Shown in pieces: positions 1 through 8,491 of a stretch of 64,000 bases of DNA (position 1 is the stretch's first letter; each line of letters starts with the position of its first letter). A program made the translations under genes and the position numbers. The stretch is from Sideroxydans sp. (GTDB lineage Bacteria > Pseudomonadota > Gammaproteobacteria > Burkholderiales > Gallionellaceae), in NCBI GenBank assembly GCA_024636935.1, contig JAGXGC010000004.1, positions 143,287 through 207,286 of the forward strand, read 5' to 3'. The notes beneath the pieces were generated by a model that did no database searches, was not told the DNA's origin, and was given only the letters and a program-made list of their open reading frames with translations.

Positions 1-293
1 ATGAATTCGTAATCGTGCTCGGCGACCTGTCCAGCAGTGCTGAAGAAATGACGACACAAGCTAAAATCGTTGCAAATAAAATCTCTGCATCGCTATACGA
101 GCCCTACCATTTGATCAAACATGATACTGAACAGACCACCTCGGTCACACATAGATGCACCTGTAGCATCGGCATCACTTTGTTCGACGGAAAATCCGAC
201 ACACAGTACGACATCCTCAGTCGTGGCGACAGCGCCATGTACCGCGCAAAAGAATCAGGGGAAAACCAGATACACATACATACATCCACGTAA
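1..293 (+). CDS. GGDEF-domain diguanylate cyclase, C-terminal fragment
   Basis: The 5' end lies outside the window. The frame starting at base 3 reads E-F-V-I-V-L-G-D, and the two bases before it (AT) fit the end of an Asp codon, so the window opens within the DEF of a GGDEF signature. Further on are the usual GGDEF landmarks CSIGITLF and GDSAMYRAKESGEN (the A-x-x-AMYxAK helix), then the stop. GGDEF domains make c-di-GMP from two GTP. Whether the enzyme is active cannot be judged, because the front half of the domain and any sensor domain are missing. It is the first of several c-di-GMP-related elements in the window. The stop lies 27 bases before the promoter of the next transcription unit. 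Confidence 0.85.
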   Translation, partial: EFVIVLGDLSSSAEEMTTQAKIVANKISASLYEPYHLIKHDTEQTTSVTHRCTCSIGITLFDGKSDTQYDILSRGDSAMYRAKESGENQIHIHTST

Positions 294-319: not shown

Positions 320-348
320 TTGACTTCGCCCGAACTTCACCCTACATT
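320..348 (+). promoter_or_regulatory. Sigma-70-type promoter, leader copy A
   Basis: TTGACT (320-325) and TACATT (343-348) are separated by 17 bases. The predicted start is near 355-357, exactly where similarity to the second leader (5339-5487) begins. A run of eight C (311-318) sits just upstream of the -35 box. Confidence 0.6.
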
Positions 349-356
349 CATACCCG

Positions 357-502
357 ACTTGCAGTTCGCTCAAGGCACATCGCACCGCATGTACGGTGTG
401 GGGCCAAAGACGAAATCCCCGGAACAGGAGGCTGGCGCAAGATGAAATTCCCGCATCGACGGGGACTAACCAGCACCAAATTGTTCGACAAAGGGGAGGG
501 CA
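357..502 (+). promoter_or_regulatory. Structured 5' leader RNA, copy A of a two-copy family
   Basis: This untranslated leader resembles 5339-5487 throughout, although the genes behind the two are unrelated. Shared blocks include ACTTGCAG, TTCGCTCAA, GCACATCGC, GAACAGGA, GCTGGCGCAAGA, ATTCCCGCA, TTGTTCG and AAAGGGGA. Visible stems: 382-387 with 394-399 (loop CATGTA); a GGGG/CCCC stem at 400-403 with 417-420; an outer stem GCTGG 431-435 with CCAGC 470-474; and inside it TTCCCG 448-453 with CGGGGA 460-465. The conserved stretch CGCAAGA-GA lies unpaired between the outer and inner stems. TTCCC (448-452) could instead pair with the Shine-Dalgarno region GGGGA (493-497), which suggests control of translation. 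I do not recognise a known riboswitch class. Function is inferred only. Confidence 0.65.
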
Positions 503-1396
503 ATGAAGCACCTGTTCGCAGTCATCACACTGCTCGGCTTGATATTTCAAGCAAGCGCGCTAGATCAGTCTGATAGCGGCAACTACGCCGCAGTCCATCG
601 TGATGGACATTTCACCGACTTCACCTTCTTCGTCACGCACAACGCTGGCCAATGGAATGTCGAACAACGGCAACCGGATGGCACATGGGCCAGTGCCACC
701 TGTTCCAACAACTGCATGTTGCAAAAATCACATGCAAGTGATCTTGCTCGTTTCTTTTCCACAAACGAATTAAACGAGACCCATCCTTCATGCGTACATA
801 ACAATGCATTCGCATTCTGTCGCCAAGATTCCATCCTCCGACCTGGCGAAAAGGAATACTCCCTCGTCGCGCTGATGATGATGGAGCGCCCCATCCAGAT
901 TCAACTCAAGAGACTCGACTCAGGATGGAAAGACCCGCAAGGCCGGATGCACCCCGACTCAGAATCCAGAAAAGCTCAGAACGGTTTTGGTGGATGGTTA
1001 CTCGTCACCTCAGATGATGACTGGGAAGCGAAATGGAAAACGGAACCAGCAGCCACCCCGCACATCAGCATGGCCACCTCCATAACCAAGGGGAAGCCTG
1101 TTTATGCACTCACCTTCTTCAGCAACCCCAAGCTCAATGAATACGGTGACGCCGACATCAGTTGTGACATAGACCTGCGCAAACCGGATGGCAGCGCCTC
1201 CTTCCAGCAGACTGATGCGACTTGCTTCAAAGGGACATTAAAAGGCCAGCCAAACTACCTCTACCTTTCGGCCCCAGTCATCAAGTTCATAGGAGAGCAG
1301 AACGACCCCTACGGCGAATGGAAAATCAGCATCACGCTCAAAGACAATGTCGGGCATACCAACCTGCCGCTAAAGACTTCGTTTATTCTTCAGTGA
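503..1396 (+). CDS. Exported protein of unknown function
   Basis: The 297-residue product starts with a clear signal peptide (MKHLFAVITLLGLIFQASA, probable cleavage before LDQSD), so it should be periplasmic or secreted. The mature part has six cysteines in pairs (TCSNNC, SCVHNNAFAFC, and one each in ISCDID and ATCFKG), enough for three disulfides. The last 110 residues alternate hydrophobic and polar positions and may form an Ig-like beta-sandwich, which is inference. The start is fixed by the strong ribosome-binding site AGGGGAGGG at 492-500. It lies behind structured leader copy A and is followed closely by the KTSC gene and a 52-codon gene, probably one operon. I do not recognise the family. 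Confidence 0.75.
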   Translation: MKHLFAVITLLGLIFQASALDQSDSGNYAAVHRDGHFTDFTFFVTHNAGQWNVEQRQPDGTWASATCSNNCMLQKSHASDLARFFSTNELNETHPSCVHNNAFAFCRQDSILRPGEKEYSLVALMMMERPIQIQLKRLDSGWKDPQGRMHPDSESRKAQNGFGGWLLVTSDDDWEAKWKTEPAATPHISMATSITKGKPVYALTFFSNPKLNEYGDADISCDIDLRKPDGSASFQQTDATCFKGTLKGQPNYLYLSAPVIKFIGEQNDPYGEWKISITLKDNVGHTNLPLKTSFILQ

Positions 1397-1417
1397 CAAA
1401 CTGAAGGGAGTAGCCGC

Positions 1418-1684
1418 ATGGAAATGAAGAAGATCAACTCGGGAAAACTGCGCGCCATCGGCTACGATGCACAGGCACGCATCCTGCAGGTGCAACTAGA
1501 CAACGGCGACACATTGCAATACCTTGGCGTCGGAGTAGAGCTCTGGCGCAGACTCAGCAGTTCAGGGGCTGCATGGAGCTTTTTCCGCGACAACATAGAA
1601 GAAGAGTTCACCGTGAAGAAAGTCTCGGCCTATGCACCGACAGGCAAGAACCCGCTAGATGATCTGTTCGGGCCAAGCGAATAA
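1418..1684 (+). CDS. KTSC-domain protein
   Basis: This 88-residue protein matches the KTSC family: INSGKLRAIGYDAQARILQVQLDNG at the front, then the tyrosine-glycine-V turn (YLGV) and the SSGAAWSFFRDNI helix. The family is small, has no firmly known biochemical role, and is often found alone or fused to nucleic-acid-related domains. The domain covers residues 5-65; a short tail ends in PLDDLFGPSE. The ribosome-binding site GAAGGGAG lies just ahead of the ATG. It begins 21 bases after the exported-protein gene and should share its transcript. Confidence 0.75.
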   Translation: MEMKKINSGKLRAIGYDAQARILQVQLDNGDTLQYLGVGVELWRRLSSSGAAWSFFRDNIEEEFTVKKVSAYAPTGKNPLDDLFGPSE

Positions 1685-1732
1685 TACCGAATGCATCGTT
1701 CCATACCCTTTCACTAACATGAGGAGGAAACA

Positions 1733-1891
1733 ATGAGCCAACCCGAAGACGACTCCATCATCATCAGCGAAGAAGGCGAACACGATGGAAAGACAGTCAT
1801 CCTGCAGCGCTGCCCCAAGCACAATATCGTTTTCCTACCGAGCGAAGGTTGTCCGGAATGTGCCAAAGAGAATGGAGCTACCGGTAGCTGA
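1733..1891 (+). CDS. Small Cys-rich (zinc-ribbon-like) protein, 52 residues
   Basis: A short open frame preceded by a very good ribosome-binding site (GAGGAGGA, 1721-1728) encodes an acidic N-terminus (MSQPEDDSIIISEEGEHDG) followed by a compact metal-site pattern: Cys-Pro-Lys-His, twelve residues, then Cys-Pro-Glu-Cys. That C-x2-H ... C-x2-C spacing suggests one zinc knuckle. It follows the KTSC gene by 48 bases in the same direction. No partner or function can be named. The evidence for it being real is the ribosome-binding site, the ordered Cys/His spacing and the codon usage in line with its neighbours. Confidence 0.6.
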   Translation: MSQPEDDSIIISEEGEHDGKTVILQRCPKHNIVFLPSEGCPECAKENGATGS

Positions 1892-1919
1892 GCAGAGAAG
1901 GTCTCATCAGCTCTCGACC

Positions 1920-2828
1920 TCAATCCTCCGCCACCAATCCCCCATCCATACTGGCGGCCCGTTCGGTCTGCTCGTTCATCACGATGATGCTGATGCGTCG
2001 ATTGCTGGGACTGAACGGATCGCCCACATCGAATAAAGCCGAAGAAGCCAAGCCGACCACTCGCAAAAACTTTTCGTCATACAGGCCGCCCGCCACCAAT
2101 TCCCGACGAGCCGCATTTGCCCTGTCCAGCGACAGCTCCCAGTTTGAATAATTGCCCATCCCACCCTGATAAGGTGTCGCATCAGTATGGCCGGTCATGC
2201 TCACTTTGTTCGGCACACTATTCAGCACACTACCGATCTTGTGCAATATTTCTACGGTGTAAAACTTTAAATTGGCACTGCCAATATCGAACATCGGACG
2301 ATTCTTCTTATCGATGATCTGGATGCGCAAACCATGCGTCGTGATATCGATCAACAGTTGATCCTTGAACTTATGCAGATTCAAATCTGCTTCAATAGCT
2401 TGTTCCAGACTCTGCTTCAACGCGATCAATTTAGTGCGTTCCTCACGTCGCGCATCACGGCGACCATCACTAACATCGAAGCGGTGAATCGGCTTCACTT
2501 CACCTTTTTGCTCCAGAGCGCTACCCTCTTTGAGGCTGTTATTCCCTTGGTTGATGATATTCATACGATCGGTCATCACTTGGCCGCCGGCCATAGCCAC
2601 CATCAAAGGAGTCTGGAAATATTTCGATATACCGTGCAAACGATCTTCTGAATTATTCGAAATCAGCCACATCAACAAAAAGAACGCCATCAACGCGGTC
2701 ACAAAGTCCGCATATGCGATCTTCCAGGTTCCAGTCGGGCCTGATCTTTTAACCAGCTTCGTTCGTCTGACGACAACCGGCTTGATCTTCTTTTTTGACT
2801 TTCTTGAAGTCGGCATTTCCACTGCCAT
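1920..2828 (-). CDS. motB: MotB-type flagellar stator protein (orphan, no motA beside it)
   Basis: The 302-residue product has the MotB layout: a basic cytoplasmic N-terminus (SRKSKKKIKP), one membrane helix with the proton-carrying aspartate in the motif WKIAYADFVTALMAFFLLMW, a linker, and a C-terminal OmpA-like peptidoglycan-binding domain (MTGHTDATPY, then NWELSLDRANAARREL). MotB pairs with MotA to form the ion channel that drives the flagellar motor, anchored to peptidoglycan. No motA lies next to it. The longer frame up to 2921 is rejected because it runs into the riboswitch; ATG 2828 (MAVEMPTSRK) is taken, with 2816 as an alternative. The ribosome-binding site is weak (ACGGGA). The gene is preceded by a c-di-GMP-I riboswitch. 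Confidence 0.88.
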   Translation of the reverse strand: MAVEMPTSRKSKKKIKPVVVRRTKLVKRSGPTGTWKIAYADFVTALMAFFLLMWLISNNSEDRLHGISKYFQTPLMVAMAGGQVMTDRMNIINQGNNSLKEGSALEQKGEVKPIHRFDVSDGRRDARREERTKLIALKQSLEQAIEADLNLHKFKDQLLIDITTHGLRIQIIDKKNRPMFDIGSANLKFYTVEILHKIGSVLNSVPNKVSMTGHTDATPYQGGMGNYSNWELSLDRANAARRELVAGGLYDEKFLRVVGLASSALFDVGDPFSPSNRRISIIVMNEQTERAASMDGGLVAED

Positions 2829-2904
2829 AATATTCCCGTAATGGTGATAAGCACCGATCCCGAGATAGCAGAAAGCCGAAAGATAATGAGGAATGAACTT
2901 ACCT

Positions 2905-3008
2905 TGCGGCCCCGCTGACACTCGACGAATTGTCGAATAGGAACTAGTCCCTTAGCCCGGAAGCTTTGCGTCCCTATCTTTCGACAGGTTTGCCCTTGTG
3001 CCCACTGA
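2905..3008 (-). promoter_or_regulatory. c-di-GMP-I (GEMM) riboswitch upstream of motB
   Basis: Read on the minus strand, the core matches the GEMM-I class closely. GCACAAGGGCAAACC (2999-2985) leads into a hairpin CCTGTC-GAAA-GATAGG with the family's GAAA tetraloop. GGGACGCAAAGC (2974-2963) is the second invariant block. TTCCGGGCTAAG supplies a tetraloop receptor (CTAAG, with TAT after a short GGGA/TTCC stem). The 3' strand AGCGGGG (2917-2911) closes the aptamer. The G that separates c-di-GMP binders from the cGAMP (GEMM-Ib) variant appears to be kept. An additional hairpin TCGAC-AATTC-GTCGA (2936-2922) sits in the third helix. No T-run terminator follows; an ATTCC (2894-2890) could pair with GGAAT at the motB ribosome-binding site, so translational control is possible. 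Confidence 0.88.
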
Positions 3009-3031
3009 CCTATCGATCAGCGAACACAGTC

Positions 3032-3084
3032 GAATGGATGAACCATTCAACTGGAACGTATTTTCACACATAAAATACCGTTCC
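3032..3084. other. Two operator-like inverted repeats between motB riboswitch and rhodanese gene
   Basis: GAATGG (3032-3037) and CCATTC (3043-3048) are perfect arms around ATGAA. GGAACGTATTTT (3053-3064) and AAAATACCGTTCC (3072-3084) form 12-base arms with one extra base, around a seven-base centre. Both lie where the leftward motB promoter and the rightward rhodanese promoter should be. They may bind a repressor or form a hairpin. The rest of the gap between 2829 and 3235 is the riboswitch plus unassigned sequence. Confidence 0.4.
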
Positions 3085-3234
3085 ACTATCAGGAAATTCC
3101 CATCTTTCCTAAATAAGCAGAGAACTGCACGTATGAAACCACTTGGATTCCCAAGCCACCCCATGCCTGCACCGACACCACAGACTGTGACTTCGGTACA
3201 ATCCAAGACACTTCCAGCCCTAAATGACTCCGCC

Positions 3235-3810
3235 ATGACTGAATACAACATCACCATCGGCCTGCCCAAGGTGGACGTGCAACACCAGGGCACCCCCGTC
3301 ACTATCCAGCGCGAGCAAGACCCGTCAGCCACCCTCCGCGCCGAATATGTCCCCACCGCACGCGCCTGCCCGCCCTACTGCATCCAACCGATGCGCCTGG
3401 CAGATGGCGTCGAAACATTCGGCGAACTGGAAGTATTGGATTACCTGAAACGCATCCACGCAGGCGACAAACAGCTCATGGTCATCGACTCGCGCACCAC
3501 AGACTGGTACGAAAAAGTCACCATCCCCAGCTCGGTAAACATCCCCTACGCACAAAACATGGCAGGTCAAGCGACCGACCTGCCCGCGGTGAAAAGAACG
3601 CTAGTGGAATCGTTCGGCGTGAAAGAGAACAACGGCAGCTACGACTTCGGCAACGCCCTCACCCTCGCTATCTTCTGTAACGGCCCATGGTGCGGACAGA
3701 CCCCCAACTACATCCGTACTCTGCTTAAGCTCGGCTACCCGGCTGAAAAATTGAAGTGGTATCGCGGTGGCATGCAAGACTGGTGCTCGCTCGGACTGAC
3801 CACCGCCTGA
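3235..3810 (+). CDS. Rhodanese-like sulfurtransferase domain protein
   Basis: The product has a single rhodanese domain: VIDSRTTDWYEKVTIPSSVNIPY at the front of the fold, and the active-site loop FCNGPWCGQTP, where the first Cys is in the position of the sulfur-carrying residue and a second Cys four residues on is unusual. An N-terminal CPPYC pair precedes the domain. It ends in WYRGGMQDWCSLG, the typical rhodanese C-terminus. It likely moves sulfane sulfur or senses redox state; the substrate cannot be told. The open frame runs back to 2998, but that part lies in the riboswitch region, so ATG 3235 is chosen (191 residues) although no good ribosome-binding site is seen. ATG 3133 is an alternative. 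It converges with tpm. Confidence 0.75.
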   Translation: MTEYNITIGLPKVDVQHQGTPVTIQREQDPSATLRAEYVPTARACPPYCIQPMRLADGVETFGELEVLDYLKRIHAGDKQLMVIDSRTTDWYEKVTIPSSVNIPYAQNMAGQATDLPAVKRTLVESFGVKENNGSYDFGNALTLAIFCNGPWCGQTPNYIRTLLKLGYPAEKLKWYRGGMQDWCSLGLTTA

Positions 3811-3819
3811 CCGTTCGAT

Positions 3820-4476
3820 TTACTTCAAAGTAAGCAGAAAGATGTTCTCCTGCATCCGTGTCACACCTCGCGCCTTGAAGCGCGGCTCCCGATCCAGAAT
3901 ATCCACCTGCTTCAGCAGATCGATCTCTGCATACTGATCATAGAGCGCCCGCACCTCCTCCACCGACACAGCGAACGGCGGCCCCGGCATCTCCTCTTGC
4001 GGATAATCGAAAGTCACCAGCAACACCTGCGTACCGGAAGGCAGAATCTCTGCCAGATGATGCGCATAACGCTCACGCATATCTGTCGGCAAGGCCACCA
4101 ATGATGCGCGGTCATACACCGCGTTCACGTTCGCCATATCCTCTTTGCGCAGATCGAAAAAATCCCCGCACAGGATGCGTACACCATCCGCCTCGCAGCA
4201 TTCGAACTTATCCGTGTGCGTATGTGTAGGTGACTTGCCTTGCTCGGTGAAAAAATCCCGCACCGCGATGCCACTCAACTCAACACCCAGCACCGATTGC
4301 CCCTGCTCGCGCAGCCACACCATATCCAAACTCTTGCCACACAATGGCACGAACACTTCACCGCCCTGTGCAGACTTCAACGTCGGCCAGAACTGTTGCA
4401 GATAGGGATTGATATCATTCTGATGGAAGCCTATCTCCGCCCGCTCCCACCGCTCCAGCCAGAATTCTTTTTTCAT
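3820..4476 (-). CDS. tpm: Thiopurine S-methyltransferase
   Basis: The 218-residue product opens with MKKEFWLERWERAEIGFHQ and carries VFVPLCGKSLDMVWL followed by VLGVELSGIAV, the S-adenosylmethionine-binding motifs of the bacterial TPMT family. Further on, GDFFDL and YDRASLVALP match family blocks. The length is normal. The enzyme methylates sulfur (in bacteria also selenium and tellurium) compounds in the cytoplasm using S-adenosylmethionine; the natural substrate is uncertain. It stands alone, convergent with the rhodanese gene, and may share sulfur-chemistry context with it. Confidence 0.9.
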   Translation of the reverse strand: MKKEFWLERWERAEIGFHQNDINPYLQQFWPTLKSAQGGEVFVPLCGKSLDMVWLREQGQSVLGVELSGIAVRDFFTEQGKSPTHTHTDKFECCEADGVRILCGDFFDLRKEDMANVNAVYDRASLVALPTDMRERYAHHLAEILPSGTQVLLVTFDYPQEEMPGPPFAVSVEEVRALYDQYAEIDLLKQVDILDREPRFKARGVTRMQENIFLLTLK

Positions 4477-4666
4477 TCACATCTCCCGGCCAACACCCGT
4501 CGGCAAAATATATGACGCCACACACTGAATCCCTGCACGACCGACCTCATCATCGTGCCGGAAGGAAGTTTTCCTAAAAGTCCATGATAAAATCGGACTG
4601 CAACCTACAAAAACGTAACACCACTTCGACAACTCCAATGGGCTCCAACTGCCCTTGATAAGCCTA

Positions 4667-5275
4667 ATGCCTAATACCAAACTACCCAGCCAACCCAAGC
4701 GAACAAAAGAACAAAAACAATCGGTGATGCGACTGGGCATCATCCTGATCGCATCCGTATTCATCGTCGAGGCCTCAGTCATGGGCATCATGACCTGGGT
4801 ACCCACGAATTCCAGGTTAGGATCTGTGCTGCTAGATGCCACCCTGCTCTCCCTGCTGCTGTTCCCAATCTTCTACTACTTGCTATTACGTCCGCTAGTA
4901 AAAAACATCGAACGGCGCAAAGCGATCGAAGCAGACCTACGTATCGCCGCCGTCTGCTTCGAGATCAAAGACCCCACAATCATCACCGACGCCGATGGCA
5001 ACATCATCCGCGCCAACCAAAAATTCCTAGACAAGACACGCTACACGATGGCAGAGATCGCCGGCAAGAATCCGCGCATCTTCAAATCAGACATGCACGA
5101 CGATAAATTCTACCAGCAACTCTGGAGAACTCTCCTGAAGCAGGGTTCCTGGAGTAGCGAGATCCGCATCAAATCCAAGGATGGCCGCACCCTCCACCCG
5201 TTCTGGGTCACCATCACCGCCGTCAAGAACGACCAAGACGAAATCACCCACTACATCGCCATCTACAACTTCTGA
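4667..5275 (+). CDS. Membrane PAS-domain protein without output domain
   Basis: The 202-residue product has a charged N-terminus, two membrane helices (about residues 23-42, and 55-75 with SVLLDATLLSLLLFPIFYYL), a short helical linker (NIERRKAIEADLRIAA) and one PAS domain (TIITDADGNIIRANQKFL, YTMAEIAGKNPRIFKS, then the WSSEIRIKSKDG strand). It stops at HYIAIYNF, exactly where a GGDEF or histidine-kinase domain usually follows a PAS domain. It may be a remnant of a larger sensor, or a stand-alone sensor working with a partner. TTG 4655 is possible, but ATG 4667 is preferred. Leader copy B begins 28 bases after the stop. Confidence 0.75.
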   Translation: MPNTKLPSQPKRTKEQKQSVMRLGIILIASVFIVEASVMGIMTWVPTNSRLGSVLLDATLLSLLLFPIFYYLLLRPLVKNIERRKAIEADLRIAAVCFEIKDPTIITDADGNIIRANQKFLDKTRYTMAEIAGKNPRIFKSDMHDDKFYQQLWRTLLKQGSWSSEIRIKSKDGRTLHPFWVTITAVKNDQDEITHYIAIYNF

Positions 5276-5284
5276 TGCATCCCC

Positions 5285-5332
5285 AATGCCATGCGAATGG
5301 CATTGACACCCCCCGCCCCACTCCCCTACAGT
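5285..5332 (+). promoter_or_regulatory. Promoter of leader copy B with overlapping palindrome
   Basis: TTGACA (5303-5308) and TACAGT (5327-5332) are 18 bases apart, giving a predicted start near 5339. A perfect palindrome AATGCCAT-GCGA-ATGGCATT (5285-5304) overlaps the first two bases of the -35 box. It has no T-run, so it looks more like an operator than a terminator for the PAS gene, but it could end that transcript. Confidence 0.55.
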
Positions 5333-5338
5333 TCACCA

Positions 5339-5487
5339 ACTTGCAGATTCGCTCAACGCACATCGCGCCGCACGCACGGCGCTAGGCACACAGCGAGCCC
5401 CCCAGAACAGGAGCTGGCGCAAGACGAGATTCCCGCACGGACGGGAACAGTGTCAGCTCATAACTTGTTCGCAAAAGGGGAAACACA
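5339..5487 (+). promoter_or_regulatory. Structured 5' leader RNA, copy B
   Basis: This is the partner of 357-502. Stem one is GCGCCG (5365-5370) with CGGCGC (5377-5382) around CACGCA. The A-U and G-U pairs seen in copy A are G-C and G-C here, that is, compensatory changes. The outer stem GAGCTG (5411-5416) with CAGCTC (5454-5459) is one pair longer than in copy A. The inner stem TTCCCG (5430-5435) pairs with CGGGAA (5442-5447), replacing a U-G of copy A with U-A. The unpaired block CGCAAGACGAGA (5418-5429) is almost unchanged. TTCCC could alternatively pair with the GGGAA of the ribosome-binding site AAAGGGGAA. The next gene is unrelated to the one behind copy A. Confidence 0.65.
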
Positions 5488-6294
5488 ATGGCTTCTATTC
5501 CAAAGAAAGTTTCTGAGCGTCTGGTAAGTGGCATCAAGAAATACCAGACGATCCTTGCTTCTGCAAAATCACGCGATGTAGGTGAAGCAGATACCGTCAC
5601 CATCATCAAAGACATGCTTCAAGACATCTTCGGGTATGACAAATACTCCGAACTGACTTCCGAATATGCCATCCGTGGAACCTACTGCGACCTCGCCACC
5701 AAGATCAACGGCGTCCTGCAAACCCTCATCGAGGTGAAAGCCATCGGTCTGGATTTAAAAGACCAGCACGTCAAACAAGCAGTCGACTATGCCGCCAACC
5801 AAGGCGTGGATTGGGTTCTCCTCACCAATGGTGTCTGCTGGCGCGTCTACCACCTGACCTTTGCCAAACCGATAACCAACGATCTGATCGTCGATATTGA
5901 TTTCACCAAGCTCAACTCTCGCAGTGTGCACGACCTTGATCTGCTCTACTTGTGGTGCAAAGAAGGATGGCAACGATCCGTCTTGGGCGAATATCACACC
6001 CAACAACAAGCCCTCTCCAAATTCTTCATCGGGGCCATGCTGCAATCAGACCCCGTTCTAGAAGTCATCCGCCGAGAGCTACGCCGTGTCTCACCAGACG
6101 TGAAGATCGATATCGAACAGATCAAATCTGTACTCGTAAGTGATGTCATCAAGCGCGATGTCATCGAAGGCGAGAAGGCCGAAGAAGCGAGAAAGAAAAT
6201 CGCCAAAGTTGCGTCAAAATCTTTACGCACAACAGCACCAAAGAAGGCCCATATTGAAATTGGGGCAGTTACGAAATCGAGCAACGAGAACTAG
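5488..6294 (+). CDS. HsdR N-terminal-type PD-(D/E)XK nuclease-like protein
   Basis: The 268-residue protein resembles the N-terminal domain of type I restriction subunit HsdR, without the helicase part. The nuclease core is visible as Asp68 (YCDLA), then Glu82-Val-Lys84 (LIEVKA), then a Q-x3-Y motif (QAVDYA, residues 97-102), which together form a PD-(D/E)XK site. The C-terminal 70 residues are charged and end in a basic, Lys/Ala-rich stretch. No HsdM or HsdS is nearby, so it is not a standard type I system. The ribosome-binding site AAAAGGGGAA belongs to leader copy B. It is followed 88 bases on by the ABC-type ATPase. A defence or DNA-damage role is inference. Confidence 0.75.
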   Translation: MASIPKKVSERLVSGIKKYQTILASAKSRDVGEADTVTIIKDMLQDIFGYDKYSELTSEYAIRGTYCDLATKINGVLQTLIEVKAIGLDLKDQHVKQAVDYAANQGVDWVLLTNGVCWRVYHLTFAKPITNDLIVDIDFTKLNSRSVHDLDLLYLWCKEGWQRSVLGEYHTQQQALSKFFIGAMLQSDPVLEVIRRELRRVSPDVKIDIEQIKSVLVSDVIKRDVIEGEKAEEARKKIAKVASKSLRTTAPKKAHIEIGAVTKSSNEN

Positions 6295-6382
6295 TGCGTC
6301 GATATTTCTTATTAATCGAGACGCTGCCAAACTTTATCCACCCCACCAGCTATTTCATATTTCCGAATTTAAGGAGCTTCAG

Positions 6383-8491
6383 ATGCAAGTGAAGTTACGC
6401 AGATGTAACAACATTGAAACTGGTTCCGTTGAAATTAAAGAACAGACCCTAAATTTAAAATACGCCCCAAATGGAAGTGGCAAAACCACCATTGCAAGAG
6501 CCGTGCTAGCCTCCATTAATGAAAGGTTAGGGACTGAAATAAATTCACTTACTTCTCTTACTCCTTTCAAGTACAGGCAAGATGAAGCTGGCAAGCCTGA
6601 AGTCACGGGAACCGAAGCGATTCAATCCGTTAAAGTCTTCGACGAGAAATACATAAGCGAATTTGTATTCCAAACAAATGAATTGATCAAAGGTAGCTTC
6701 GATATATTCATTAGAGGTTCATCCTATGATCAGGGTATGAGTGAAATAGACGCTCATGTTGCTGAAATGCAAATAGCTCTCAGTGAAGACAAAGACATTG
6801 CTGACCTAATTGCAGATTTCAACGAGATTAGCAGCAGCTTTGGAAAAGAAACGAAGAGCGGAATTCATGGCTCCAGTGGTCTTGCCAAAGCTTTTAAGGA
6901 TGGAAATAAGGTTGCGAACATTCCTGAAGGACTTGAGCCATACAAGTCGTATATTCAACATTCAGGAAACTACAAGTGGGTGAAATGGCAACTGGGGGGT
7001 GCCGAGTTCATGGATATTGGTGCTGACTGCCCATATTGCACAAGCAACATTGAGGAGAAGCGCGAAACCATAAAGCTTGTCAGTGAAATCTACGATTCAA
7101 AATCCATCGAAAACCTGAACAAAATTGTTTCGGCATTTCATCGTCTCAACATGTACTTCTCTGACGACACTAAAGCCAAGATTGCAGAATTTGTAGAATG
7201 TGTGGGCGGATATACCGCCGATCAAGCAAATTTCCTAAGAGAGGTTAAGGCCCAGATAGATCGCTTGGGAGACAAGTTCATTAGGGCGCAACGGCTTGGA
7301 TTTTCGTCTCTAAAAGACGTAGACAAAGTCATCAACGGCCTTAACGATCACAAAATTGACCTTTCCCTTTTCGTACACCTCAATTCCAAAAATACAAAGC
7401 AGAAGGCTGAAATAGTTAACGTTGCAATCGGCAAACTATTAGAACAGGCAGGGCAATTGCAGGGAATGATCAACAAACAGAAGAAACTTATCGAAGATTT
7501 GGTGAAGGAACATAGTGCTGGAATCAATGCATTCATGCAAAACGCAGGCTATGTTTACCGTGTTGCCTTACAAGACGATGGTAAGGGGCAGCATCAATTG
7601 AAGCTAATTCATAGTGACCTCAATGGGGAAATCGAAAATGCAAAAGCACACCTTAGCTACGGCGAGCGAAATGCGTTTGCGCTAGTCTTATTCATGTATG
7701 ACGCGTTGAAGACGGCACCTGACCTTATAGTTCTGGACGACCCAATATCTTCGTTCGATAAGACCAAGAAGTACGCCATCATTGACATGTTGTTCCGCAA
7801 AGGGAGCGGATCACTCCGGGATAAAACTGTCCTCTTGTTGACTCACGACCTCGAACCAATTATTGACATGATGGCTCACCATCCCGATCGGTTCAAAAAA
7901 CCGTTCGCGACATTTCTCCAGAACAACAACGGAACGCTCACCGAAAAGGAAATTGAGCGTGCAGATATACAAACTTTCATCGAAATCACCGACAAAAACC
8001 TAGCGTCAGAAAGCCACATCTTAAATAAGCTCATATACCTGCGGCGACGTTTGGAGATCACAGGAGAAAAGGGGCTTATGTTCCAAGTAATCTCAAATGT
8101 TCTTCACAAACGTCCTACCCCACAAATGATTGAGGGACAGGACAGTAGAGACATGACCGCTGAGGAACTGCAAGACGGCGTTAATGAAATTGCAGCTAAT
8201 ATTCCTAACTTTGATTATCAAACATTGTTAGCTTATATCTGCAACGACGAGAAGATGATTGAACTCTATAGCAATACGGCGAGCAACTACGAAAAGCTCC
8301 ATTTATACCGGACTATTTTCGATGACAAAGATGACCTAATTGACTCGGACATAACACGAAAATTCATCAATGAAGCATTTCATATTGAAAACGACTATAT
8401 CTATCAACTTAACCCGCGTGAATTTCAAACGGTGCCACATTTTGTAATTGAGCAATGTAATCGGCACGTCGAAATATTAGCTACTACATAG
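6383..8491 (+). CDS. PrrC/RloC-like ABC ATPase (AAA_13 type), possible defence protein
   Basis: The 702-residue product carries a full ABC ATPase set: Walker A APNGSGKTT (28-36), a CPYC pair at 216-219 amid helical arms (as in zinc-hook proteins), signature LSYGER (424-429), Walker B LIVLDDP (448-454) and the switch histidine in LLLTHD (488). This order matches the AAA_13 family that includes the anticodon nucleases PrrC and RloC. The C-terminal 210 residues include R554-x3-E558 and H575, which resemble the Arg-Glu-His triad of those nucleases, though with different spacing, so nuclease activity is only a guess. ATG 6383 is chosen for its AAGGAG site at 6371-6376; the frame is open back to 6140. 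The gene is clearly AT-richer than its neighbours, which suggests transfer. Confidence 0.75.
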   Translation: MQVKLRRCNNIETGSVEIKEQTLNLKYAPNGSGKTTIARAVLASINERLGTEINSLTSLTPFKYRQDEAGKPEVTGTEAIQSVKVFDEKYISEFVFQTNELIKGSFDIFIRGSSYDQGMSEIDAHVAEMQIALSEDKDIADLIADFNEISSSFGKETKSGIHGSSGLAKAFKDGNKVANIPEGLEPYKSYIQHSGNYKWVKWQLGGAEFMDIGADCPYCTSNIEEKRETIKLVSEIYDSKSIENLNKIVSAFHRLNMYFSDDTKAKIAEFVECVGGYTADQANFLREVKAQIDRLGDKFIRAQRLGFSSLKDVDKVINGLNDHKIDLSLFVHLNSKNTKQKAEIVNVAIGKLLEQAGQLQGMINKQKKLIEDLVKEHSAGINAFMQNAGYVYRVALQDDGKGQHQLKLIHSDLNGEIENAKAHLSYGERNAFALVLFMYDALKTAPDLIVLDDPISSFDKTKKYAIIDMLFRKGSGSLRDKTVLLLTHDLEPIIDMMAHHPDRFKKPFATFLQNNNGTLTEKEIERADIQTFIEITDKNLASESHILNKLIYLRRRLEITGEKGLMFQVISNVLHKRPTPQMIEGQDSRDMTAEELQDGVNEIAANIPNFDYQTLLAYICNDEKMIELYSNTASNYEKLHLYRTIFDDKDDLIDSDITRKFINEAFHIENDYIYQLNPREFQTVPHFVIEQCNRHVEILATT

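Follow-up and report, generated by a model that had tools for sequence, protein, structure and literature searches.

Why should two closely similar leaders stand in front of two genes that share nothing with each other? The question is raised by a stretch of 64,000 nucleotides (nt) of Sideroxydans sp. (assembly GCA_024636935.1, contig JAGXGC010000004.1, positions 143,287 to 207,286), referred to here as the window, in which a sequence-only reading had picked out two copies of a structured leader and proposed a regulatory RNA of an unrecognised class. That proposal is supported in part. The leader belongs to a structured cis-regulatory RNA family absent from Rfam, a conclusion well supported by its homologues, by covariation, and by the placement of its promoter and of the start codon behind it. 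The family, its fold, this placement, a predicted burial of the Shine-Dalgarno sequence and re-use before unrelated genes are all computational observations. Taken whole, together with the mechanism set out below, our best explanation is a new family of cis-regulatory leader RNAs of ~145 nt, which we put forward tentatively and at close to even weight. The parts of the two window copies, all on the + strand, are as follows.

320..348, +: promoter of copy 1 (TTGACT, 17 nt, TACATT), with 9 of 12 consensus bases
357..498, +: structured leader RNA, copy 1; 149.4 bits with covariance model R1 and 115.2 bits with R2
382..399, +: P2 hairpin of copy 1, GCACCG-CATGTA-CGGTGT, with a CAYGNA hexaloop; its pairs covary
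417..426, +: 5' strand of P3 in copy 1, anti-Shine-Dalgarno CCCC plus GAACA; P3b covaries in copies from other genera
430..474, +: P4/P5 arm of copy 1, with the conserved GCAAG at 437-441
482..496, +: 3' strand of P3 in copy 1, TGTTC plus the Shine-Dalgarno GGGG (417-420 pair with 493-496, 422-426 with 482-486)
5303..5332, +: promoter of copy 2 (TTGACA, 18 nt, TACAGT), with 10 of 12 consensus bases
5339..5482, +: structured leader RNA, copy 2; 152.9 bits with R1 and 145.5 bits with R2
5365..5382, +: P2 hairpin of copy 2, GCGCCG-CACGCA-CGGCGC
5400..5409, +: 5' strand of P3 in copy 2, CCCC-A-GAACA
5411..5459, +: P4/P5 arm of copy 2, with GCAAG at 5419-5423
5466..5480, +: 3' strand of P3 in copy 2, TGTTC plus the Shine-Dalgarno GGGG (5400-5403 pair with 5477-5480, 5405-5409 with 5466-5470)

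The likeness of the two copies is real: positions 340-497 and 5324-5481 are 77% identical by BLAST (125 of 163 columns; E 3e-23 in a search against 24.6 kb of the same genome). They are not a lone pair, however, as the genome holds four copies and the family many more. Model R1, built from the four copies, scores 119.9 to 152.9 bits at four places in the genome and finds no other at E <=1, and R2, built from 42 copies including copies 2 and 3 of this genome, returns the same four. Copy 3 (G000:C18:249670), found by searching the genome with copy 1, lies on the same contig as the window and precedes a class I S-adenosylmethionine (SAM) methyltransferase-type gene. Copy 4 (G000:C18:141073-141205) lies on that contig outside the window, and copies 4, 1 and 2 all fall within 8 kb. 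Given the further copies in this genome and its relatives, a chance resemblance of the two copies was rejected.

How far does the family reach? With R1 at E 0.1, the leader was found in 31 of 34 genomes of the same genus (its own included, and one only at E 0.007), in 1 of 3 other genomes of the family and in 0 of 24 other genomes of the order, with up to 12 copies per genome. With R2 at E 1e-5, it was present in 68 of 158 genomes of the family, spread over 6 of 15 genera and including 30 of the 34 of its own genus; the homologues expected of a real RNA family are thus there. A draw from the order gave R2 matches in 8 of 399 genomes, all eight of the same family (13 family members are listed in this draw, and for 371 of the 386 genomes without a match, which are not listed singly, kinship is taken from list order), and a draw from the phylum gave matches in 2 of 398, both of its own genus. 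Searches over more than 40 genomes use stricter filters, with which weak matches are lost. An exact pattern run over named species genomes returned 30 stretches, whose titles read Gallionella, Sideroxydans, Sideroxyarcus, Ferrigenium, Gallionellaceae or Gallionellales, or, for metagenome-assembled genomes of no lower rank, stop at Nitrosomonadales or Gammaproteobacteria; the four genera we take to be members of the iron-oxidising Gallionellaceae. An exact pattern had no match in viral contigs, and blastn with copy 2 none in plasmids or phages, so that carriage by phage or plasmid was rejected. As to a mobile DNA repeat of the MITE/REP type, which would have terminal inverted repeats and target-site duplications, the inverted repeats in the two window copies are of 6-9 nt only, none longer linking the ends of the unit.

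The fold itself is well supported by covariation. The R1 search had given 139 matches in 31 other genomes, or 107 stretches, of which the best 100 were retrieved and the 7 weakest left out; stretches L141-L143 were left out of later locus searches. From 133 copies, 42 picked for length and clear motifs were aligned with MAFFT, a choice that favours the canonical fold (57 passed the filter, six of the c1 type and eleven more divergent ones were dropped, and two from outside the filter were added), and the 36-pair structure was drawn on this alignment itself and is hence favoured by it. Here 91.0% of the pair cells are paired, against 34.5-45.4% when the partner strand is slid. Two-sided changes occur at 12 of the 36 pairs, a count reached by 3 of 500 shuffles, and in 60 cells against 23.2 +/- 4.1 in the shuffles (reached by 0 of 500); the covariation score was reached by 0 of 500 shuffles and the number of pair types by 19 of 500. 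The signal also stands above shuffled controls in two sets fitted to the model. Among 29 distinct copies from other genera (31 rows), none of them used in model building, 91.6% of cells are paired, 15 of the 36 pairs change on both sides, and 42 two-sided cells compare with 14.6 +/- 4.0, with 0 of 500 shuffles reaching the observed value on every measure. The main set, with 129 distinct rows among 131, is 88.9% paired; two-sided change is seen at 32 pairs and in 284 cells, against 80.5 +/- 7.1.

From mutual information computed free of any structure, predicted pairs take the first four ranks and 14 of the first 40. It also extends P2 by C23-G47 and U25-A46, after which C26-G45 closes the run. 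With these three pairs added, P2 becomes a single long arm that bears a CAYGNA loop and two bulged A; of the rows that have a letter at these bulges, 123 of 128 and 121 of 127 show A. The changes that the sequence-only reading had seen between the window copies, A-U to G-C and G-U to G-C in P2 and U-G to U-A in the inner hairpin, now called P5, are all present. Its outer stem corresponds to P4, but the larger P3 helix that encloses this stem and buries the Shine-Dalgarno sequence had been missed. In the copies from other genera, four of the five P3b pairs change on both sides, with variants such as UUCAG/CUGAA and GAAAA/UUUUC seen by eye; of 161 copies, 126 carry the CCCC of P3 and 19 others CCC. 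Outside the helices as first drawn, nineteen positions are conserved at 90% or more, 17 once the added P2 pairs are counted, and the conserved unpaired positions lie in the 5' ACUUGCA, the bulges, the hexaloop, GCAAG and a few more places. Pairing of the 5' ACUUGC with the beginning of the coding region, as an additional closing helix, was weak and is not claimed: at least 6 pairs form in 38 of 161 copies against 14% of shuffled ones, and at least 5 in 86 of 161 against 51%.

What the fold is set against becomes evident at its two ends. Counted over 161 distinct sequences among 164 copies, a TTGACA-like box with at most one mismatch, followed at 17 or 18 nt by TANANT, precedes 143 copies and 0 of 161 shuffled flanks, and the leader begins with ACTTGCA in 113. 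Both window copies show a single sigma70-like promoter where one would be expected. At the other end, 131 of the 161 copies have a start codon 3-9 nt past the G run, whereas a control window gives 30 of 161; in 18 there is no start codon at that place, and in 12 no G run was found. The GGGG has a mean unpaired probability of 0.097, which rises to 0.276 when the upstream part is shuffled, and the value is below 0.1 in 88 of 123 copies against 115 of 492 shuffled ones (38 of the 161 copies were omitted for want of GGGG or for length). In 94 of the 123, the predicted partner of at least three of the four G is nt 55-73. The fold as a whole averages 8.76 kcal/mol below shuffles and is lower in 117 of 123.

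A paired Shine-Dalgarno sequence by itself would also suit an RNA thermometer. Conservation of loops, bulges and junctions and a G-C-rich P3a would be out of character for a thermometer, however, and domain A, the 5' part of the leader formed by P1 and P2, would be superfluous in one; we regard a thermometer as very improbable. Alternatively, the leader might sense nothing and be a passive unit, a ready-made promoter with a stable 5' untranslated region (UTR), copied before accessory genes to give fixed expression or mRNA stability. The stability of the fold relative to shuffles agrees with this, as does the sharing of promoter and leader together in several pairs of copies, and many of the start codons behind the leader open only short open reading frames (ORFs). 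Yet the fold is predicted to bury the Shine-Dalgarno sequence rather than expose it, and conservation at loop, bulge and junction positions would be needless in a passive UTR. The passive unit therefore appears rather improbable.

The arrangement appears instead to work like a regulatory leader that hides its ribosome-binding site, and the steps may be pictured as follows. A sigma70-type promoter would start transcription at ACUUGCA. Domain A would then form from P1, capped by the long P2 arm with its two conserved bulged A and the CAYGNA hexaloop, while in domain B P3 would join CCCC-R-GAACA to UGUUC and GGGG, enclosing the P4/P5 arm with its conserved GCAAG. Because the GGGG is the Shine-Dalgarno sequence, closed P3 would block ribosome entry at the start codon 3-9 nt downstream. 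The probable sensor is formed by domain A together with the P4 junction, where the conserved loop and bulge bases lie. A small molecule, either a second messenger or a metabolite, would shift P3 between closed and open and so set translation. Loci would differ in what is translated first, the gene itself in some and a short ORF in others, and in the latter the effect may be passed on by translational coupling or by linkage of transcription to translation. A translational switch of some kind we consider probable. Its riboswitch-type version, with a small molecule as the signal, is possible but falls somewhat short of even weight; both estimates allow for the short ORFs that over half of the start codons open.

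The sequence-only reading had placed the switch elsewhere, in an alternative pairing of TTCCC from the inner stem with the Shine-Dalgarno region. Although both window copies could form it, this pairing is not conserved. P5 could be located by pattern in 109 of 161 copies (and not in the other 52), of which 41 carry TTCCC and 35 AACCC, and with only 41 of the 109 showing it the TTCCC switch was rejected as a conserved feature. If the leader is driven by a ligand or a protein, as had been suggested and as we infer, P3 rather than the TTCCC pairing is the likely expression platform.

Several observations weigh against the explanation that we prefer. P3a is absent from the minimum-energy fold of 29 of 123 copies. 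In P4 the changes are mostly G-C to G-U, with none two-sided in either the 42-copy or the other-genera set, which makes P4 the least tested helix, and P3a has little freedom to vary because its GGGG is constrained. No conserved alternative fold was found, the one that had been proposed not being conserved. No pathway is common to the downstream genes that would name the ligand, and the leader is limited to one bacterial family, which to our knowledge most riboswitch classes are not. Ligand, transcript and response are all inferred. Finally, the 131 start codons open ORFs of <70 codons in 72 cases, of 70-99 in 5 and of at least 100 in 54. With 72 of the 131 short, the main gene in many loci lies further on with a start of its own, and the direct translational model fits only part of the loci. 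Translational coupling is suggested at four loci (L105, L113, L122 and L124), where the end of a short ORF of 16-17 codons meets or overlaps the beginning of a signalling-group gene; elsewhere the main gene starts independently, further downstream.

Short first ORFs would also be explained by a processive antitermination element which, like the put or EAR RNA, acts on RNA polymerase and here would aid the expression of foreign genes. In its favour, the leader begins at the predicted transcription start, precedes many accessory genes, and has two hairpin arms near the promoter. On the other hand, antitermination elements are not known to require a Shine-Dalgarno sequence and start codon placed against the fold, and in most copies these are so placed. 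We judge this alternative slightly less probable still than the passive unit; both are less likely than control by a protein or small RNA and are kept alive by the short first ORFs.

The main rival is a translational switch that senses a protein or a trans-acting small RNA (sRNA) bound at domain A or at the loops. Both hairpins bear hexaloops that mostly start with CA (by eye, CAYGNA in P2 and often CANNGA in P5), a plausible recognition pair, and a diverse regulon is typical of a global RNA-binding protein. No partner was identified, however, and a 145-nt fold exceeds what an sRNA target needs. Two known protein systems do not fit. CsrA leaders carry conserved ANGGA-type sites, whereas a CsrA-like CAGGA is found in only 101 of 161 copies, AGUGAGG in 13 and neither in 47, and a CsrA-regulated leader was rejected. 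ANTAR targets have two neighbouring hexaloop hairpins with A1 and G4; the P2 loop has C at position 1 (a frequency of 1.0 after rounding), and P2 and P5 are ~50 nt apart in the consensus. Control by a protein or sRNA is an unlikely reading, albeit one to be taken seriously.

None of the 4227 families of Rfam 15, cyclic di-GMP (c-di-GMP)-I included, matches the leader at gathering thresholds. Up to E 1 there was no match in seven loci, and up to E 5 the sole match was a small nucleolar RNA (E 1.7, at L001:3029-3080), outside the leader. The leader thus belongs to no Rfam 15 family at the thresholds used, and a known Rfam family as its identity was rejected for want of a covariance-model match within it. 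The same genome carries three c-di-GMP-I riboswitches (RF01051), one of them between the two window leaders:

2902-3004, -: c-di-GMP-I riboswitch, 57.7 bits, before a MotB/OmpA-like gene (by eye) at 1920-2921, -

Like the leader, it is a multi-copy leader; unlike it, it has a different fold, its Rfam model does not match the leader, and the leader's target genes are very mixed. The orphan riboswitch candidates of comparative screens share with the leader a conserved fold, conserved motifs in loops and junctions, and a helix that buries the Shine-Dalgarno sequence before genes. The leader differs from them in having its own conserved promoter, in being confined to one family, and in near-identical copies before unrelated genes. 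It may also be compared with small DNA repeats. BRE, a repeat of ~90 bp in several betaproteobacterial genomes, for example of Bordetella and Polaromonas (PMC3110155), resembles it, as do other small bacterial repeats, in being short, intergenic and present in many copies per genome; the leader is set apart by its promoter and start-codon geometry and by its restriction to its own family among 399 genomes of the order. In the titles and abstract beginnings listed for literature on Gallionella or Sideroxydans and structured or noncoding RNA, no description of the leader was found.

Which genes, then, stand behind the leader? In the first set, 128 of 133 copies are followed within 500 nt by an ORF of at least 100 codons (starts were set mechanically and some are certainly wrong). 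The largest groups linked by BLAST are 28 signalling-type proteins (with CHASE, PAS and GGDEF domains in L104, which was scanned) and 20 methyltransferases (L055 scanned); single Pfam scans in the large groups covered representatives only. Smaller groups are relatives of the copy 1 protein (6), DUF3857 (4), DUF4124-type (4), DUF6765 (4) and HsdR-N-like proteins (3), and there are many singletons. Gallionella capsiferriformans is listed among the species with the highest density of c-di-GMP turnover proteins (PMC10333796), and the many GGDEF genes behind the leader may merely reflect a GGDEF-rich group. Anti-phage proteins are also represented: among 24 proteins picked by eye and scanned singly, 12 match PADLOC at E 1e-5 or better (5 of 10, 6 of 10 and 1 of 4). 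Among 78 proteins scanned together, any one PADLOC family was matched by at most 3. The PADLOC matches include the following, with distances from the leader.

L079: GajA, 715.9 bits, ORF at 94 nt
L108: LmuA, 222.6 bits, 262 nt
L077: Old, 190.8 bits, 482 nt
L121: Old, 106.7 bits, 261 nt
L086: SIR2-STAND, best 70.3 bits, 144 nt
L193: PD-Lambda-5_A, 402.2 bits, 4 nt
L198: PDC-S06, 875.0 bits, 161 nt

For several of these ORFs the distance is such that the leader is followed first by another, small ORF. HsdR-N-like, SLATT, Nmad2, HATPase and caspase-type proteins, scanned singly, gave no PADLOC match. The genes belonging to the window copies and to copy 4 are these.

15..293, +: end of the long ORF behind copy 4, assigned to the CHASE/PAS/GGDEF type from its relatedness to L104
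503..1396, +: gene behind copy 1, an exported protein (by eye, signal-like N-terminus) with no Pfam match; relatives stand behind a leader at 5 other places in the first set and, by eye, at L199
5488..6294, +: gene behind copy 2, HSDR_N_2-like at 23.3 bits, below the Pfam cut-off of 25, with no PADLOC match
6140..8491, +: second gene behind copy 2, an AAA_13 ATPase matching candidate defence family PDC-S06 at 882.6 bits (mechanical ORF start)

Within 5488-8491, the HsdR-N-like gene and the AAA_13 ATPase overlap or adjoin, and they may form a two-gene anti-phage operon.

The relation of leaders to genes is clearest from near-identical copies. Among 42 pairs of leaders that are 90% or more identical across 90% of their length, downstream genes are unrelated in 13 and related in 25, and cannot be judged in 4 (two with L129, one with L185, one with L047), where readable downstream DNA is missing, short or masked. 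The claim that the genes behind the leader are unrelated thus stands for 13 of the 42, but vertical descent with one gene is also common, and the re-use of a promoter-bearing unit across the family had escaped the sequence-only reading. Six of the 13 pairs come from only four copies (L061, L063, L067 and L077). Promoter and leader of L063 and L077 are 96.7% identical over 184 bp, and the tested flanks of these two show no BLAST similarity. L062 and L064, in one genome, differ in their promoter spacers and flanks but are near-identical between a point just ahead of the transcription start and one ~55-60 nt beyond the ribosome site, as if the transcribed part had been copied or converted. In the window, a PAS gene at 4655-5275 has no leader; its relative in L091, 65% identical, lies 195 nt behind one. 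Leaders thus seem to have been gained, lost and re-used, and the best reading of these comparisons is a promoter-leader unit copied as a module before unrelated accessory genes within one bacterial family. Horizontal regulatory transfer of intergenic regions (Oren et al., 2014, as described in PMC5890482) likewise has regulatory regions moving independently of the genes they control; there, alternative regions swap before the same gene, whereas here one structured unit stands before many genes.

A recurring neighbourhood comprises a DUF6765 gene, a CHASE/PAS/GGDEF gene, an exported protein of the copy 1 type and an HsdR-N-like gene. In L044 each of these four has its own leader, and this is partly so in L045/L046, in L048 and in the window with its upstream flank; the neighbourhood is perhaps the ancestral home of the RNA. 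Some leaders are accompanied by further repeats. A palindromic repeat of the CCTCCCCCATGCAGGGGGAGG type, with variants, lies between the leader's start codon and the methyltransferase gene in L057, L074, L111 and L133. Several leaders contain, or begin with, a second small repeat, which is GC-rich and includes words such as CACCGGCGTACCCCTTGCGGGTG:

L059:701-893, L096:5892-6095, L135:701-895 and L138:701-906: GC-rich repeat inside or at the start of the leader
L130, L131 and L133: GC-rich repeat at the 5' end of the copy

Past the start codon, the first 45 nt after the ribosome site are shared by L061, L063, L067, L077, L081, L103 and similar copies and encode short peptides, for example M-I-A-R-L-T-E-H-S; this is possibly a leader peptide or the relic of an ancestral gene start.

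The furthest-reaching interpretation would make the unit a self-contained mobile promoter-plus-riboswitch cassette of Gallionellaceae, a mobile RNA regulon in which one small-molecule signal governs unrelated accessory genes, several anti-phage systems, c-di-GMP enzymes and secreted proteins among them. We think this conceivable but unlikely. The ligand of a riboswitch class can usually be told from its genes, which tend to belong to one pathway. In the present case the RNA is well defined, its ribosome site is predicted to be buried, and it recurs before genes without a common pathway, sometimes near-unchanged while the flanks differ; the consensus together with 161 distinct natural variants makes a ligand search and reporter tests direct. 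If the leader does respond to a signal, defence, signalling and surface genes in this family would be under shared control at the level of RNA, and the leader would be a regulatory RNA that colonises new genes.

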